Assembly: GCF_008039615.1 (NCBI RefSeq)
Contig: NZ_VDUZ01000074.1
Coordinates: forward strand, 1 to 36,898
Reading direction: 5' to 3'
DNA: 36,898 nt
From: Vineibacter terrae
GTDB taxonomy: Bacteria > Pseudomonadota > Alphaproteobacteria > Reyranellales > Reyranellaceae
Shown: piece after piece, positions 12 to 36,811 of the stretch
Position numbering within the stretch: the first letter of the stretch is position 1
How the letters are laid out: each line of letters starts with the position of its first letter
Program-made: the position numbers and the translations under genes
Notes under the pieces: model-generated
Seen by the model: only the letters and a program-made list of their open reading frames with translations
The model's database searches: none
What the model was told of the DNA's origin: nothing

Positions 12-38
12 GCGGCGCTGGAGCGCCGCGGCCCGACC
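12..38 (+). repeat. REP hairpin copy 1
   Basis: A 27-nt unit: 8-bp perfect stem (GCGGCGCT / AGCGCCGC) around a GG centre, followed by the tail GGCCCGACC. It lies 12 bp beyond the helicase stop codon. The same unit recurs at 2471-2497 (opposite orientation) and 3096-3122, with related copies near 36612-36686. The fourth base pair of the stem is G-C here, C-G in copies 2 and 3, and T-A in copy 5, so pairing is preserved while sequence changes. It may also act as a 3' RNA-stabilising hairpin for the helicase transcript. Confidence 0.8.
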
Positions 39-49
39 AAAGGCATACC

Positions 50-2524
50 CTACAGCCGCGTTGCCTCGGCAATGATTTCCTGCGCTGCCTCGTCGAGCAG
101 CTCGTCGAGGGTGTCGCGGCCCATCACCTGCTCGCGGCCGATCTCGAGCAGCACCGGCACGGCCAGCGGCGAGATCCGGTCCAATCGACGGTAGTCGATG
201 CGGCCCTTGGCGCGCCGCAACAGGTCGCCGAGCCGGCGGATGTCGGCGAGTTGCCAGGCGGCGTCCTGGCGCGTGGCGCGCAGCAGGATGTGCTGCGGCT
301 CGTGGCGGCGCAGGGCGTCGTAGATCAGGTCGGCGCTGAACGTGACCTGGCGGCGCGACTTCTCCTGGCCGGGGAAGCGGCGCTCGATCAGGCCGGCGAT
401 CACCGCCACGTTGCGGAACGAGCGGCGCAGCATCGACGACTCATCCATCCATGCTTCGAGGTCGTCGCCCAGCATGTCCTCGTCGAACAGAGCCTCGACC
501 TGCCATGGCCGCGCCGGCTCGACGCCCCAGATGCCCAGCACATAGTCGGTGGCCACGAAACCCAGCGGCTTCAGCCCCATGCGCTCCATGCGCCGCGTCA
601 GCAGCATGCCCAGGGTCTGGTGCGCGTTGCGTCCCTCGAAGCAATAGGCGACGAGGAACTGCCGCCTGCCGCGCGGGAAGCCCTCGACCAGCAGCCGGTC
701 GGCGCCCGGCAAGGTCGAGCGCAGGCCCTGGATGCGCAGCCACTTGCGCACGTCGTCCGGCAGCGCCGCGTGGCGCGCCGGATCGGCGATGATGTCGCGC
801 ACCCGCCCGGCAAGATAGGTGCTCAGCGGCAGGCGCCCGCCGCCATAGGCCGGGATCTTGGGATCGCCGGCCTCGCGAACGCGGCTCACTTCCGCGTGCA
901 GCTGGCGCACGCCGTCGAAGCGCAGCAGCTGGCCGGCGAAGATGAACGTGTCGCCCGGCACCAGGCCCTGGATGAAGATCTCCTCGACCTCGCCCAGCAC
1001 CGGCCCGCCGCGCAGCTTCACCTTCATCAAGGGCTGCTCGACGATGGTGCCGACATTCATGCGGTATTGCCGCACCACGTCGGGCCGCGTCACCTCCCAC
1101 CTGCCGTCGCTGCGCGGGAACAGGCGGCGCCATTTCTCGTACGCGGCCAGGGCATAGCCGCCGGTGGCCACGAAGTCGAAAGCGTCGTCGTAGTCGCGGC
1201 GCGACAGATCGCGGAAGGGTGCCGCGCGGCGCACCTCGTCGAAGAGCGCATCACGATCCAGCGGCGCCGAGCAGGCGCAACCCAGGATGTGCTGGGTCAG
1301 CGCGTCCAGGCAGGGCGGCCGCGGCGGGTCGCCGTCCAGCTCCCTTGCCGCGACCGCCTCCTGGGCTGCGATGCACTCCAGCACCTCGAAGCGGTTGCCC
1401 GGCGCCAGCAGGGCGCGGCTGGGCTCATCGAGACGATGGTTGGCGCGGCCCACGCGCTGCAGCAGCCGGCTCACGCCCTTGGGCGCGCCGACCTGGACCA
1501 CGAGGTCGATGTCGCCCCAGTCGATCCCCAGGTCGAGGGAGCTGGTGGCGACCACGGCGCGCAGCTTGCCGGCCGACATCGCCGCCTCGACCTTGCGCCG
1601 CTGCTCGACCTCCAGGCTGCCGTGATGCAGGCCGATCGGCAGATTGTCGCTGTTGAGCCGCCACAGCCCGTCGAACGTCAGCTCGGCCTGGGCCCGCGTG
1701 TTCACGAACACCAGCGTCATCCGATGCTGACGGATGGCATTGTAGATGTCGGGCACGGTGTGCTGCGCCATGTGCCCGCCCCAGGGCACGCGCGCATCGG
1801 GATTGAGGATCGCGATTTGGGGCCGGGCGCCACCTTCCACCGTCACGACCTCGACGGGCGACGTGCCCAAGCGCAGCCAGTCGGCATACATCGGCGGATC
1901 GTCCACGGTCGCCGACAGGCCGACGAAGCGCGCCGGCGGCGCCATCGCCGCCAGCCGCGCCAGGCCCAGCGCCAGCAGGTGGCCGCGCTTGGTGGTGGCG
2001 ATGGCGTGCAGCTCGTCGATCACGACGGTGCGCAGTCCCGAGAAGTAGTCGGCGGCATCAGGGTACGACAGCAGCAGCGCCAGCGACTCGGGCGTGGTCA
2101 GCAGCATCTGCGGCGGCCGCAGGCGCTGGCGCTCGCGGCGATTCTGCGGTGTGTCGCCGCTGCGCGTCTCGACGCGCACCTGCAGTCCCATCTCGCTGAT
2201 CGGGGCCTGCAGGTTGCGGTGGATGTCGGTGGCCAGCGCCTTCAGCGGCGAAATGTAGAGCGTATGGACCGTCTCGGCCGCCGCGCCCGCCGCCGCCAGC
2301 GCGACCAGGCTGGGCAGGAACCCGGCCAGCGTCTTGCCGGCGCCGGTCGGCGCGATCAGCAGCACCGACTTCCCTTCGGCGGCCAGCCGCACCATATCGA
2401 GCTGATGCGGCCGCGGCGTCCACCCCCGCACCGCGAACCAGTCCGTGAAGCGGGGTGGGAGGTTGTCTTCGGTCGGGCCGCGCCGCTCCAGCGGCGCATT
2501 CTTCATTTCGGCGTGCGCCGCCAT
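50..2524 (-). CDS. Ligase-associated Lhr-like DEXH-box DNA helicase
   Basis: Superfamily 2 ATP-dependent DNA helicase of the Lhr type, of the subfamily found beside a bacterial ATP-dependent ligase and an MBL nuclease; expected to unwind or remodel damaged DNA. Visible motifs: Walker A APTGAGKT (about residues 58-65), DELH box (170-173), LSAT motif III (about 203-206), then LDLGIDW and QRVGRANHR in the second RecA domain, followed by a long C-terminal region typical of Lhr-core proteins. The chosen ATG at 2524 has GGAG six bases upstream, giving 824 aa. A TTG at 2542 and an ATG at 2506 are in the same frame; the latter overlaps the upstream transposase stop as ATGA. Residues 10-18 (APLERRGPT) are encoded by a REP hairpin, so the N-terminus looks acquired; the conserved part starts near LPPRFTDW. 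Function is confident, start less so. Confidence 0.9.
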   Translation of the reverse strand: MAAHAEMKNAPLERRGPTEDNLPPRFTDWFAVRGWTPRPHQLDMVRLAAEGKSVLLIAPTGAGKTLAGFLPSLVALAAAGAAAETVHTLYISPLKALATDIHRNLQAPISEMGLQVRVETRSGDTPQNRRERQRLRPPQMLLTTPESLALLLSYPDAADYFSGLRTVVIDELHAIATTKRGHLLALGLARLAAMAPPARFVGLSATVDDPPMYADWLRLGTSPVEVVTVEGGARPQIAILNPDARVPWGGHMAQHTVPDIYNAIRQHRMTLVFVNTRAQAELTFDGLWRLNSDNLPIGLHHGSLEVEQRRKVEAAMSAGKLRAVVATSSLDLGIDWGDIDLVVQVGAPKGVSRLLQRVGRANHRLDEPSRALLAPGNRFEVLECIAAQEAVAARELDGDPPRPPCLDALTQHILGCACSAPLDRDALFDEVRRAAPFRDLSRRDYDDAFDFVATGGYALAAYEKWRRLFPRSDGRWEVTRPDVVRQYRMNVGTIVEQPLMKVKLRGGPVLGEVEEIFIQGLVPGDTFIFAGQLLRFDGVRQLHAEVSRVREAGDPKIPAYGGGRLPLSTYLAGRVRDIIADPARHAALPDDVRKWLRIQGLRSTLPGADRLLVEGFPRGRRQFLVAYCFEGRNAHQTLGMLLTRRMERMGLKPLGFVATDYVLGIWGVEPARPWQVEALFDEDMLGDDLEAWMDESSMLRRSFRNVAVIAGLIERRFPGQEKSRRQVTFSADLIYDALRRHEPQHILLRATRQDAAWQLADIRRLGDLLRRAKGRIDYRRLDRISPLAVPVLLEIGREQVMGRDTLDELLDEAAQEIIAEATRL
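2471..2497 (-). repeat. REP hairpin copy 2, inside the helicase N-terminus
   Basis: Same 27-nt unit as at 3096-3122 but inverted: GGTCGGGCC head and a perfect 8-bp stem GCGCCGCT / AGCGGCGC. It ends 6 bp beyond the transposase stop codon (2503) and lies within helicase codons 10-18. With copy 3 it brackets the RAYT gene as an inverted pair. Confidence 0.85.
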
Positions 2525-3084
2525 GCTGAGCTCCATCGCCAATTGGCGCGATCGTTCGTCAATCCCGCCTTCACGGGATTCTCTTCAATGTAGTGCAGTG
2601 CGGCGTCGTAGTGCCGAGCGTCACGAACAAAGCGATCAAAGTAATCAGTCTGCCAGAACGGGCCCGACCTCTCGAGATGACGGTTGGCAAAACGTGCCGT
2701 GAACTGCTTCCATGAGGCAACAATAGCGCCGAGCTGATAGCCACCCGCAACTTCAAGCATGACGTGAACATGATTTGGCATGACGCACCAAGCCAGCAGC
2801 CGATAGCGATTGCCGTCGAAGTGCAGCAGAGCATCTTCGACCAGCCGGGCCAGCACCGGGTCTCGCAACCAGCAGGCGCCTGATCCGTTGTCGAGCAGGG
2901 TTTCCAGCTTGTTGTTGCCGAGCAGATCGTCCGTCAGCATCTTCACGACATGGGCAGGCAGGCTGTCCGCCAATCGGAATGTCACTGTCTGCACGAGATC
3001 TGGCGCATCGAAATGCGGCAGATATCCGCGCGAATGCCAACCTTTTGGTTCCTCCATTGTTGAAGGATAGAGTGTGTTCGCCAT
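2503..3084 (-). CDS. REP-associated tyrosine transposase (RAYT)
   Basis: 193-aa Y1/IS200-like single-strand transposase of the REP-associated class, which is thought to nick and spread REP hairpins. The HUH-type signature is PNHVHVML (His105 and His107), with WQTDYFDRFVRD at about 145-154. A candidate catalytic tyrosine is Tyr165 in the family-typical HYIEENPVKAGL. Length fits the family. Inverted REP copies lie 6 bp beyond its stop and 11 bp before its ATG, making a 652-bp REP-RAYT-REP cassette at 2471-3122. Its stop overlaps a possible downstream helicase ATG as ATGA. No convincing Shine-Dalgarno precedes ATG 3084; ATG at codon 10 is an alternative. All catalytic residues expected of the family appear intact, so the gene may be functional. 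It was probably inserted between the divergent repair genes. Confidence 0.9.
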   Translation of the reverse strand: MANTLYPSTMEEPKGWHSRGYLPHFDAPDLVQTVTFRLADSLPAHVVKMLTDDLLGNNKLETLLDNGSGACWLRDPVLARLVEDALLHFDGNRYRLLAWCVMPNHVHVMLEVAGGYQLGAIVASWKQFTARFANRHLERSGPFWQTDYFDRFVRDARHYDAALHYIEENPVKAGLTNDRANWRWSSAWRRTPK

Positions 3085-3095
3085 CTAAAGAAGAG

Positions 3096-3122
3096 GCGCC
3101 GCTGGAGCGGCGCGGCCCGACC
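3096..3122 (+). repeat. REP hairpin copy 3, between RAYT and exonuclease
   Basis: 27-nt unit with perfect 8-bp stem GCGCCGCT / AGCGGCGC and tail GGCCCGACC. It occupies nearly half of the 61-bp space between the divergent starts of the transposase (3084) and exonuclease (3146). Any promoter for either gene must therefore overlap it or lie inside coding sequence. Confidence 0.85.
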
Positions 3123-7567: not shown

Positions 7568-7954
7568 ATGGCCCTTGACGACAGATTCGCCAAGGCCTTG
7601 CTCAAGAAGGCCCACCGCGGATTCAACGGTTATCCCATTGCGACCGTCGCCTATTACGGTCCGGACGACAGGCGCGCTTCGAAGGTCGCCGTCAGCGTCC
7701 TCATGGCTCAGGACGAGGACATAGCCGAGCTGCGCCGCTGGTTCTCCGAGCACGGCGACGTGCGCCGGGACGCCACTGTCCAACGCGCGATCCTCGAATT
7801 CATCCGTCGGCATGACGCCCAATCCGTGGCCATCGGCGATGGGATCATGGGGTGCCCGCATGAGGAGGGCATCGACTACCCGGACGGCGAGGCATGCCCG
7901 CAATGCCCCTTCTGGGCCGGCCGGAAGCGCCCCATCGGCAAGCTCATGCGCTGA
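7568..7954 (+). CDS. Small conserved protein of unknown function with Cys/His cluster
   Basis: 128 aa, start ATG 7568, 14 bp after moaA. I do not recognise a named domain; similar-looking proteins with a GCPHEEGIDYP...CPxCPFW ending are, to my recollection, common in rhizobia. Cys96, His98, Cys110 and Cys113 could form a zinc site at the C-terminal end. The middle part (IAELRRWFSEHGDVRRDATV) looks helical. No signal peptide or membrane segment, so presumably cytoplasmic. The moaA linkage may hint at metal or redox metabolism but is not evidence of function. A 22-bp palindrome lies 30 bp downstream. Confidence 0.7.
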   Translation: MALDDRFAKALLKKAHRGFNGYPIATVAYYGPDDRRASKVAVSVLMAQDEDIAELRRWFSEHGDVRRDATVQRAILEFIRRHDAQSVAIGDGIMGCPHEEGIDYPDGEACPQCPFWAGRKRPIGKLMR

Positions 7955-12919: not shown

Positions 12920-13881
<962 letters not shown>

Positions 13882-13885
<4 letters not shown>

Positions 13886-16131
13886 GCCTCCGCCGGCTCC
13901 AGCGCGGCCAGCACCTTGGGCGGCGACATGGGCAGGCTGTCGAAGCGGTGCCCCACGGCACCGTGCAGCGCATTGGCCACGGCGGCCAGCGACGGCACCA
14001 GCGGTACCTCGCCGACCCCGCGCACACCTTGGGGATGCTTCGGGTTGGGCACCTCGATGATCACCGTGTCGAGCATCGGCAGGTCGGAGGCGACCGGCAT
14101 GCGATAGTCGAGGAAGCTCGGGTTATCGACCCGGCCGTGCTTGTCGTAGATGTATTCCTCGTTCAGCGCCCAGCCGATGCCCTGCGCCACGCCGCCCTGC
14201 ATCTGGCCCTCGACGTAGCTCGGGTGGATTGCGCGGCCGACGTCCTGGATGCAGGTGAAGCGCGTCACCGCGACCTTGCCGGTGGCGCGGTCGACCTCGA
14301 CGTCGCAGATATGCGTGGCGAAGCCGCCCTCCGCCCCCGTGGTGTTGAGCGACACGCCGGCGCCGATCGGACCGCCGGTCTCGCTCGCCCGGGCCGCCAG
14401 CTGGGCCAGCGACAGCGGCTCGAACTTGCCGGCGTTGTCGCCGGCCGGCCGCGCCTGGCCGTTGTCCCAGGTGACGGCCTCCGGGTCGATCTTCCAGATC
14501 TTGGCCGCCCGCTGGCGCAGCGTGGTGATGACCTGCTCGGTCGATTTCGTGACCACCATCGCCGACGCGTAGGTCACGCGGCTGCCGCCGGTGAGGTTGC
14601 TGAAGCCGATGCTGCTGGTGTCGCCGATCAGGACCTGGATCTTGCTGTGGTCGATGCCCAGCAGCTCGGCCGTGATGTTGGCGGTCGAGGCGCGCGAGCC
14701 GCCGATATCGGGATGGCCGGTGATCACGACCACCGTGCCGTCCTCGTTGACGTTGACCTGGGCGCTCGATTCGCCGCCGGCGTTGAACCAGAACCCGCTC
14801 GCCACGCCGCGTCCCTGGTTGGGGGCCAGCGGCGCCATGTAGTGTGGATGCGCCAGCGCCGCCTTCAGCGTCTCCTCGTATCCGATCACCGGGAAGGTCG
14901 GACCATAGGCCGCCTTCGTCCCCTGCTTGGCGGCGTTCTTCAGCCGCAGCTGCAGCGGATCCATCTTCAGGGCCTGCGCCAGCTCGTCGAGCACGCACTC
15001 GGCCGCGTACGCGCCGATCGGGGCGCCCGGCGCGCGGTATGCCGCCACCTTCGAGCGGTTCGACACGACGTCGAAGCCGACCGCATGGACGTTCGGAATG
15101 TCGTAAGGCGAGAACGCGCAGCCCGCGGCGCCGCGGATCGGCGAGCCGGGGAAGGCGCCGGCCTGCAGGTAGTAGATGCCCTTCGCGGCGACGATCTTGC
15201 CGTCCCGGGTGGCGCCGATCTTCACCGTGCTGGATGATCCCGACGTCGGTCCGGACGCCCGGAACACCTCCTCCCGGGTCATCGTCATCTTCACCGGCCG
15301 GCCCGACTTGCGGGCCAGGACCAGCGCGACGGGCTCCAGGTAGACGATGGTCTTGCCGCCGAAGCCGCCGCCGATCTCCGCCGGAATCGCGCGGATGTCG
15401 CTCTGCGCCGTGCCTGTCAGGTAGGCGCACATGGCCCGCACCATGAACTGGCCCTGGCTGGAGCTCCAGATCGTGGCCTTGCCGTCGGGCGCCACGCTCA
15501 CCAGGCAGGCATGCGGCTCGATGTAGCCCTGATGCACGGGCTCGGTCTTGAAGCTGCGCTCGACGATCACGTCGGCCGCGGCGAAGCCGGCCTCGACGTC
15601 GCCCAGCTTGTGCTCGATCTTGCCGGCGATGTTGGAGGGCTTGCCCTCGAACTGGATGTGGCCGTGCAGGATAGGCGCGCCGGGCGCCATCGCCGCGTCG
15701 ACGTCGATCACCCAGGGCAGCACCTCGTAGTCGACCTCGATCAGCGTCAGCGCCTGGGCCGCGATCTGCTGCGACGTCGCGGCCACGGCCGCCACGGGAT
15801 GCCCGGCGAACAGCGCCTTGTCGCGCGCCATCACGTTGCGGCACATCCAGCGCATGTCCTGGATGCCCAGCATCACCGACTTGTCGATCGGGAAGTCCAC
15901 GAGGTCCCTGCTCGTCATGACGGCCTTCACGCCCGGCAGCGCCGCCGCCTTGTCCGTGTTGATCGACCTGATCCGGGCATGCGGATGCGGGCTGCGCAGG
16001 ATCTTGCCCCAGATCATCCCGGGCATCGTGGTGTCGGCGGCGTAGGCCGCGCGTCCCGTGACCTTGTCCATGCCATCCGGCCGCGGCGTGCGCTTGCCGA
16101 TCCACTTGTTGTCCGGATTGTCGATGCTCAT
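13882..16131 (-). CDS. Molybdenum hydroxylase large (Moco-binding) subunit, xanthine dehydrogenase family
   Basis: 749-aa catalytic subunit of the xanthine dehydrogenase/aldehyde oxidase superfamily, which hydroxylates N-heterocycles, aldehydes or related substrates using a molybdenum cofactor. Motifs: GRAAYAADTTMPGMIWGKILRSPHPHARI near the N-terminus, the Moco loop GGGFGGK at 254-260, YRAPGAP at 365-371 (unlike the CoxL AYRCSFR loop), and GVGEVP near 705 with the expected catalytic glutamate (about Glu708). ATG 16131 is preceded by AGGG at seven bases; the frame stays open far upstream, antisense to the amidohydrolase, and that part is not protein-like. No FeS or FAD subunit gene is adjacent in the window, which is odd for this family. 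Substrate unknown. Confidence 0.9.
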
Positions 16132-36417: not shown

Positions 36418-36611
36418 TGCAGCCACCTTGCGTTGCACCAATGCGCAAGCATGGCCTGCGCCGCCGGCCGGCGCCACTGCCGTGCCTCGTCCTGTGGAAT
36501 TGCCGTGGCGCCGACTGTGGCTGAAAGGTGAGTCGCGACTGTTTTCCCGAGCGTGGGTGATGCGAAGGATCTTGCGGTGGGCGGCACCAGTCACCGGCGG
36601 CTATGGTGACG

Positions 36612-36638
36612 GCTGGGACCGCGCCGCTCCAGCGGCGC
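36612..36638 (-). repeat. REP-like hairpin copy 4
   Basis: The 18-bp core GCGCCGCT-CC-AGCGGCGC (36621-36638) is identical to copies 2 and 3. The nine-base head is GCTGGGACC instead of GGTCGGGCC. It is inverted relative to copy 5, 21 bp away. Confidence 0.75.
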
Positions 36639-36659
36639 TCTTCCCTCCGATCGCCATGA

Positions 36660-36686
36660 GCGTCGCTGGAGCGACGCGGTCCGGCC
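36660..36686 (+). repeat. REP-like hairpin copy 5
   Basis: Core GCGTCGCT-GG-AGCGACGC (36660-36677) with tail GGTCCGGCC. Compared with the other copies the fourth stem pair is T-A, another compensated change. Together with copy 4 it forms an inverted REP pair, as in bacterial interspersed mosaic elements. Confidence 0.75.
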
Positions 36687-36811
36687 CGTCACCAGCAACG
36701 CTGGTGCTGTGCCAGCCACCGCAAGATCCTTCGCGTCGCTCAGATTCTATGTAGCGACGAGAGGTCAGGAGGTAGGCTTTGAGTTTGGACCGAGCCTACG
36801 GAGGAAGAGAG

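Follow-up and report, generated by a model that had tools for sequence, protein, structure and literature searches.

A 652-bp cassette in the genome of Vineibacter terrae consists of a tyrosine transposase gene between two inverted repetitive extragenic palindromes (REPs). We consider it very probable that this cassette is a REPtron: a domesticated REP-associated tyrosine transposase (RAYT) of the HUH/Y1 type, its REP ends, and non-autonomous, outward-facing REP pairs (REPINs) that are spread through the genome and would be copied by the RAYT. The cassette lies at 2471-3122 of the window, by which we mean the whole 36,898-nucleotide stretch of DNA analyzed here (contig NZ_VDUZ01000074.1, assembly GCF_008039615.1). 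The anatomy of the cassette, the covariation of its hairpin, and the copy number, pairing, and intergenic placing of the REPs are established by the data below; mobilization is what we infer. On balance, and with less confidence, we also favor a broader proposal. A further REP superfamily would stand beside the GTRG and CGTC superfamilies, recognized by GGRSC next to a 7-bp hairpin with a 3- to 4-nt loop and by a RAYT lineage of its own that spans several phyla (NHVH, mostly Y[IV]ExNP). Under this proposal, a RAYT of that lineage would have become fixed in Reyranellaceae ahead of the gene for a ligase-associated repair helicase, as the first cistron and coupled to it in translation, and a REP would now supply the opening codons of the helicase.

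The cassette and its transposase

The two 27-nt REP units of the cassette are identical over all 27 nt and enclose an intact open reading frame (ORF), as had been read from the sequence in the original prediction. The unit 3′ of the RAYT gene (2471-2497, minus strand) has the tag GGTCGGGCC, a 7-bp stem, and the loop TCCA; the inverted copy on the 5′ side, with its tag outward, occupies 3096-3122 on the plus strand. The gaps between gene and REPs had been given as 6 and 11 bp. There are indeed 11 nt ahead of the ATG, but 5 rather than 6 past the stop codon.

A search of the window with the 27-nt unit gave 3 matches, against 0 in 100 shuffles. Besides the cassette ends, an exact unit is present at 12-38 (plus strand), whose partner would fall beyond the contig start, and two divergent units form an outward-facing pair, the left half with tag GCTGGGACC (36612-36638, minus strand) and the right half with tag GGCCGGACC (36660-36686, plus strand). 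The fourth stem pair had been described as G-C, C-G, or T-A, always paired; taking the units that start at 2471, 3096, 12, 36612, and 36660 in turn, it is C-G, C-G, G-C, C-G, and T-A, paired in five of five. The tail GGCCCGACC occurs four times in the window, where 1.15 occurrences per shuffle are expected. One of these, at 2661-2669 (the GGTCGGGCC tag sequence), lies within the RAYT coding region without a hairpin and is probably a chance occurrence.

The RAYT gene (2503-3084, minus strand) encodes 193 amino acids with the HUH motif NHVH (residues 104-107), W144, and a presumed catalytic Tyr165 in YIEENP. The protein carries the class 2 TnpA-Y1 signature, an HUH motif and a single Tyr in Y---NP on a Y1 fold, and it matches Pfam Y1_Tnp (E = 1.8e-9). 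Residues N104, H105, H107, Y165, N169, and P170 are invariant across the 41 sequences of our alignment (A3), all of which match NCBIfam NF047646 (REP-associated tyrosine transposase) with an E value of 0.001 or lower. Records of Reyranellaceae and Rhodospirillales are among the nearest named relatives. A structure predicted from a 41-sequence alignment (predicted local distance difference test score, 87.4) has the HUH/Y1 fold. Its best fold match in the PDB is 4er8, a structure of TnpA-REP in complex with a REP hairpin (E = 8.4e-9), followed by IS200-type transposases (ISDra2 and IS608), and 4er8 is also the sole relative in a sequence search of solved structures at E up to 1.

By analogy with published work on TnpA-REP and IS200/IS605 transposases, the RAYT would bind the folded single strand of a REP, read the GGRS guide at the foot of the hairpin, cut beside it through Tyr165, and rejoin the strand. 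REP pairs would thereby be copied or moved, probably while the lagging-strand template is single stranded. The guide in this system would be GGRS followed by C (GGGCC in the cassette), in place of GTAG or GTGG.

The REP population of the genome

The original prediction proposed a search of the whole genome with the 27-nt unit and named as a refuting outcome that the few copies of the window would be the only ones. We searched the 8.76-Mb genome to which the window belongs (G000), leaving the fourth pair free and allowing up to 3 mismatches, and found 171 copies, 84 on the plus and 87 on the minus strand; the reversed pattern gave 0. A sample of 126 copies in 397 kb was then analyzed, made up of 58 stretches around copies among the places listed, the stretch around a second RAYT (no copy), and the window (5 copies); since the stretches were picked for containing copies and the copies are related, they are not independent samples. 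The fourth pair, although free in the pattern, is C-G in 68 copies, G-C in 30, T-A in 26, and C-A in 2, and is therefore paired in 124 of the 126, so the covariation noticed in the window holds across the sample. The tag is GGTCGGGCC in 77 copies, GGCCGGGCC in 21, GGTCGGACC in 12, GCTGGGACC in 10, and another sequence in 6, and conservation starts abruptly at the outer G of the GGTCGGGCC tag (125 copies).

All 55 close pairs in the sample have their tags outward. Two of them are a single hairpin with a tag on each side; the spacing of the other 53 ranges from 7 to 100 bp and is mostly 12 to 49 bp, and 16 copies are single. Inverted REP pairs at short distance throughout the genome, which define REPINs, are what the sample contains. 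As judged with a simple codon-usage gene finder, 120 of the 126 copies are intergenic, compared with 14.4% of random 27-mers. One stretch (L181) contains four REP pairs or double-tag units. Two REP pairs of this stretch were checked against the matching junctions of G002 and G001, two other genomes of the genus, and both were absent there. Several contigs have a REP no more than about 70 bp from one of their ends (12-38 in the window; C73:37, C81:39, C87:29, and C1:365793 elsewhere in G000). Assembly may therefore break at REPs, and the copy number may be an undercount.

Alternatively, selection at gene ends could maintain the REPs, chiefly for terminating transcription or as hairpins at mRNA ends, and their presence beside the RAYT would be incidental. 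They are enriched at convergent junctions (30 of 66 REP units, versus 53 of 328 gene junctions) and avoided at divergent ones (2 of 66 versus 55 of 328), one site with a REP pair here has an unrelated terminator-like hairpin in G002, and REPs persist in genomes without a detected RAYT. We nevertheless find this explanation unlikely. It leaves unexplained the conservation of the tag on one side only, the strict outward pairing, the sharp outer boundary, and the inverted repeats that flank 81 of 108 RAYT genes on both sides (see below). A terminator role can coexist with copying by the RAYT, as a secondary use.

GGRSC hairpins beside RAYT relatives

We collected 111 RAYT-homologue hits and dropped three for short flanks, which left 108 loci. 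Flanking inverted repeats with a score of at least 16 were found at 81 of these loci and at 0 of 134 control positions in them. Of the 162 ends of the 81 loci, 147 have a hairpin, with a 7-bp stem in 135 and a loop of 3 or 4 nt in every case. GG[AG][GC]C stands at the hairpin foot in 123 of the 147 ends, whereas shuffled flanks gave a mean of 14.9 and a maximum of 24 in 100 rounds; the foot was chosen by trying a few offsets in either orientation and keeping the best, and the shuffles used the same rule. GGRSC with a hairpin is present at one end or more in 68 of the 108 loci and at both ends in 55. GTRG within 8 nt before the foot is seen at 4 of the 147 ends, and the cassette tag GGTCGGGCC lacks the GTAG or GTGG at 0 to 2 nt from the foot by which GTRG REPs are recognized. 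Among 27 distinct REPs with a 4-nt loop, two-sided changes occur at five of the seven stem pairs. All 189 cells are paired (66% in shuffles), but perfect stems were required in picking these REPs, so the evidence is the two-sided changes and not the perfect pairing.

As a check on the method, we examined 58 further loci, 40 of them with an ORF by motif filter, and recovered GTRG repeats at 15, assigned by inspection (L216, L244, L245, L248, L251 [score 10 only], L253, L254, L256, L257, L266-L269, L271, and L272); automatic GTRG labels at L221 and L226 were judged false on inspection. Where the further loci encode longer Y1 proteins with NHVH or NHYH, the repeats are of the GGKGACAG or GGGGTCAG type.

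In a tree of 142 rows (four of the 108 loci left out), a branch with support of 98/84, from a bootstrap that was unsettled and carried a long-branch warning, parts 67 GGRSC rows (66 of the 108 loci plus L219) from all 15 GTRG rows. The GGRSC rows are intermixed with relatives without a clear repeat, and the clade with repeats of the terminal-inverted-repeat (TIR) type joins by a long branch on the GGRSC side, so the split is not to be taken as a single origin. The motif NHVH is present in 61 of the 67 GGRSC rows. These rows, most of which derive from metagenome assemblies, are labeled as coming from six phyla, Pseudomonadota, Verrucomicrobiota, Lentisphaerota, Acidobacteriota, Myxococcota, and Binatota.

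We considered residue 145, which aligns with E. coli Q95, a reported guide contact, as a specificity switch. Over 62 rows, no position has higher mutual information with the fourth letter of the guide, and the residue is His in 17 of 26 GGAC rows and 0 of 31 GGAG rows. The signal comes mostly from one clade and vanishes with one row per 65% cluster, and we rejected this candidate.

Relation to known REP systems

Our comparison with the literature draws on parts of the texts of the papers cited. Nunvar 2010 (PMC2817692) treats GT(A/G)G heads only, and only gammaproteobacterial RAYTs passed its criteria. Di Nocera 2013 (PMC3733652) describes GTAG and CGTC superfamilies, the latter without a transposase, as well as TIRtrons and REPs within replication and repair genes. 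Quentin 2018 (PMC6006769) reports GT[AG]G REPs in five subclasses, “atypical” structures in subclass 2.6, and CnGA in class 3, and gives alphaproteobacteria none or few homologues per genome. In Corneloup 2021 (PMC8266576), the guide takes part in choosing the cleavage site. For alphaproteobacteria, these sources describe GTAG REPs, limited to a few genomes, and CGTC REPs, which lack a transposase. The available text of these four papers, figures and supplements apart, contains no GGRSC guide, and a literature search that included REP strings and Reyranella repeats returned no title on such REPs among the matches listed; single members may possibly have been listed earlier in figures or supplements of the key papers. 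The suggestion that the set with the GGCCCGACC tail is an undescribed alphaproteobacterial one is thus plausible, but the evidence points beyond this framing, to a GGRSC class that accompanies many relatives of this RAYT in several phyla and of which GGCCCGACC would be the local form. What is plausibly new beyond that suggestion is a GGRSC tag class that differs from the GTAG/GTGG of the literature.

The closest parallel is the GTAG/GTGG TnpA-REP/RAYT system of E. coli, Pseudomonas, and Stenotrophomonas (PMC2817692, PMC6006769, and PMC8266576), which shares the HUH/Y1 protein, inverted REPs at both gene ends, genome-wide REP pairs, low gene copy number, and intergenic bias. The present system differs in its guide, GGRS plus C, in an HUH motif that is mostly NHVH rather than DHxH, and in its place in the tree; against the GTAG/GTGG REPs, the GGRSC set can also be characterized by the 7-bp stem (135 of 147 ends) and the uniform 3- or 4-nt loop. 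Subclasses 2.7 and 2.4 of TnpA-REP (Quentin 2018) come close in their table 1 entries for the NHVH, WQ, and YIxxNP motifs and a length of about 193 amino acids; compared by description, they are reported with GT[AG]G REPs.

The CGTC REPs of alphaproteobacteria (PMC3733652) resemble the set here in being short hairpins with a one-sided tag, mainly alphaproteobacterial and mainly arranged as head-to-head dimers. However, they are reported without a transposase, whereas the set here flanks one, and the tag in the 126-copy tally differs from CGTC, TGTC, and CCTC; we therefore rejected an assignment to the CGTC REPs. TIRYTs or TIRtrons (Di Nocera 2013; subclass 2.1 of Quentin 2018) likewise combine a Y1 transposase with inverted non-GTAG repeats at both ends, and the TIRs reported for them include self-complementary, repeated ones, as here. 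Their shared TIR motif GGGGWSAS was not seen in our set, and the longer Y1 proteins flanked by repeats of the GGKGACAG or GGGGTCAG type fall in another clade. Since motif and clade both differ, we rejected this assignment as well, on a comparison by description that leaves room for overlap with some TIRs.

The RAYT-helicase junction

On the minus strand, the RAYT gene runs into a gene for a ligase-associated DNA damage response DEXH helicase (50-2506; TIGR04121, 1083 bits), and exonuclease (TIGR04122) and ligase genes lie on the other side. The TGA that ends the RAYT gene and the ATG at which the helicase gene is proposed to start overlap as ATGA (2503-2506, minus strand), a feature absent from the original prediction. 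The REP at 2471-2497 also reads as nine in-frame helicase codons, APLERRGPT, and in this genome the stretch from the REP to the conserved block of the helicase contains no start codon. One REP appears to be part of the first codons of a DNA repair helicase now.

The same junction is found in relatives. G002 has the ATGA overlap, the APLERRGPT codons, and no later start; its RAYT is split in two frames, with the overlap kept. G007 has a GTGA overlap and APLERRGP, and G008 has CTGA (a doubtful start) and APLEWRAP. In G001 and G005, helicase and exonuclease genes are adjacent without a RAYT, and the helicases have other N termini, so that the helicase-start junction is occupied by a RAYT in four genomes and empty in two. 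In G006 (L273, C72:4000-11500), the RAYT lies by the exonuclease gene and the helicase is inverted relative to G007, its native N terminus away from the RAYT, which means that the junction was rearranged. In the tree, from which the G002 copy is absent, the RAYTs of G000, G006, G007, and G008 group together in a single clade with support of 100/99. Judging by these sequences, the RAYT seems to have been kept by long vertical descent, as is stated for RAYTs in general (PMC8049555, in part of its text). Because its stop codon overlaps a possible helicase start, persistence of the RAYT may be tied to helicase expression; translational coupling of the two genes is suggested by the ATGA overlap alone.

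A conventional insertion sequence of the IS200/IS605 type, one that moves as a whole, would also have the HUH/Y1 fold and hairpins at both ends, and it would account for the empty junctions in G001 and G005. We think this very unlikely. Such elements are recognized by several near-identical whole copies, whereas this genome has one full cassette, one paralogue at 58% identity with a different palindrome, and one short fragment. The hairpins far outnumber the gene, and the same junction in four genomes, together with one clade of intact RAYTs, points to vertical descent.

RAYTs and REP numbers across the family

Within the genus, a search with the 27-nt unit gave 50 copies in G002, one in G003, and none in G001. 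With a slightly wider pattern, among 75 family genomes, V. terrae itself has 182 copies, G008 has 106, G007 has 69, G002 has 55, and G005 has 34; the other 70 hold at most 9. The original prediction had named, as an outcome that would count against it, copies equally common in relatives without the RAYT. In its strong form this is not what we see, as four of the five REP-rich genomes have a RAYT beside the helicase gene, that of G002 split. The fifth, G005, has 34 more divergent copies and no close RAYT, so REP copies do survive without one. G006, whose genome is 67% complete, has a RAYT and 2 copies by the wider pattern.

We also built a REP model (R1), from the 27 loop-4 sequences only, so that loop-3 families are undercounted; about 106 candidates were scored per genome, and high counts are therefore “at least” values used as ranks. 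Over the family, the median count is 75 in genomes with a RAYT (n = 38) and 19 in genomes without (n = 32; P of about 7e-5, in a test that ignores kinship among genomes). Five genomes with weak or partial RAYT hits were set apart, and adding them to the RAYT-free group changes little. Among 20 genomes reached via chosen RAYT-homologue loci, 13 hold at least 9 matches and 7 hold 1 to 7; Caulobacteraceae, Methylocystis, and Hyphomonadaceae records have 126, 144, and 151.

The cassette ends also vary between genomes. Their tail is GGCCCGAAG in G007, where it is common among the genome's units, and GGCCCGACC in V. terrae. In G008 (L276, C41:10000-18500), the cassette ends are GGGGC-GCGCCAC, and most genome units among the matches listed are GGGCC-tagged with other stems; the RAYT of G008 may have changed its REP, or a second RAYT may have been lost. 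That the REP pairs are miniature inverted-repeat transposable elements (MITEs) of another transposase, of which the RAYT merely acquired two, would fit the REP-rich genomes without a detected RAYT and the GGACC-tagged pairs that lie within a larger inverted-repeat element, but we think it very unlikely, although no search for another candidate transposase was made. In G000, G002, and G007, the stem and tag of the cassette ends match those of the commonest REPs in the respective genome, and they vary from one genome to the next.

Several results weigh against our interpretation of the cassette as a REPtron coupled to the helicase. The NF047646 score of the RAYT is 78.3 bits, 1.7 bits short of the curated cut-off of 80. 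No flanking repeat of score 16 was found at 27 of the 108 loci of relatives. G002 keeps its 50 to 55 copies though the RAYT at its helicase locus is split across two frames. Genomes in which no RAYT was detected reach 90 to 103 REP-like matches (G020, G025, G051, G072, and G073), and some with a RAYT have few (2 in G052, 3 in G056, and 1 in G006), so the link between RAYT and REPs is a statistical one. At the helicase, a start codon is also present past the REP in G007 (TTG) and G008 (ATG), and the REP need not be translated there.

Implications

Where these enzymes cleave is believed to be set by the guide tetranucleotide. With GGAG, GGAC, GGGG, and GGGC guides, a natural lineage offers many enzyme-substrate pairs for testing the guide rule. 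A transposase-linked set opens alphaproteobacterial REPs to experiment, and searches based on GT[AG]G would miss the GGRSC class. The helicase junction offers a specific example with which to ask why a transposase should persist for so long as one lone gene.

Other features of the genome

The second RAYT of the genome (L032, G000:C23:5689-6222) is 58% identical to that of the cassette and has a different flanking palindrome, GGGAGSGCCGGCTTCCAGCCGGC. A short remnant of a RAYT N terminus, 21 residues at 71% identity, is present in L033 (G000:C40:49990-50052). Stretch L181 contains two other dispersed repeat families (about 130 and 90 bp, on both strands) at about 7617-7745, 13851-13936, and 15477-15565; many copies are found in G002, and the shorter family also occurs in G001. 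In the window, the pair of divergent REPs near the right end, which is GGACC tagged, is enclosed by an inverted-repeat element of about 170 bp (36562-36735) with the ends GCGAAGGATCTTGCGGTGG and CCACCGCAAGATCCTTCGC, which looks like a MITE nested with REPs. Nine further GGACC-tagged pairs have a mostly similar outer context, TGGTGACG/CGTCACCA.

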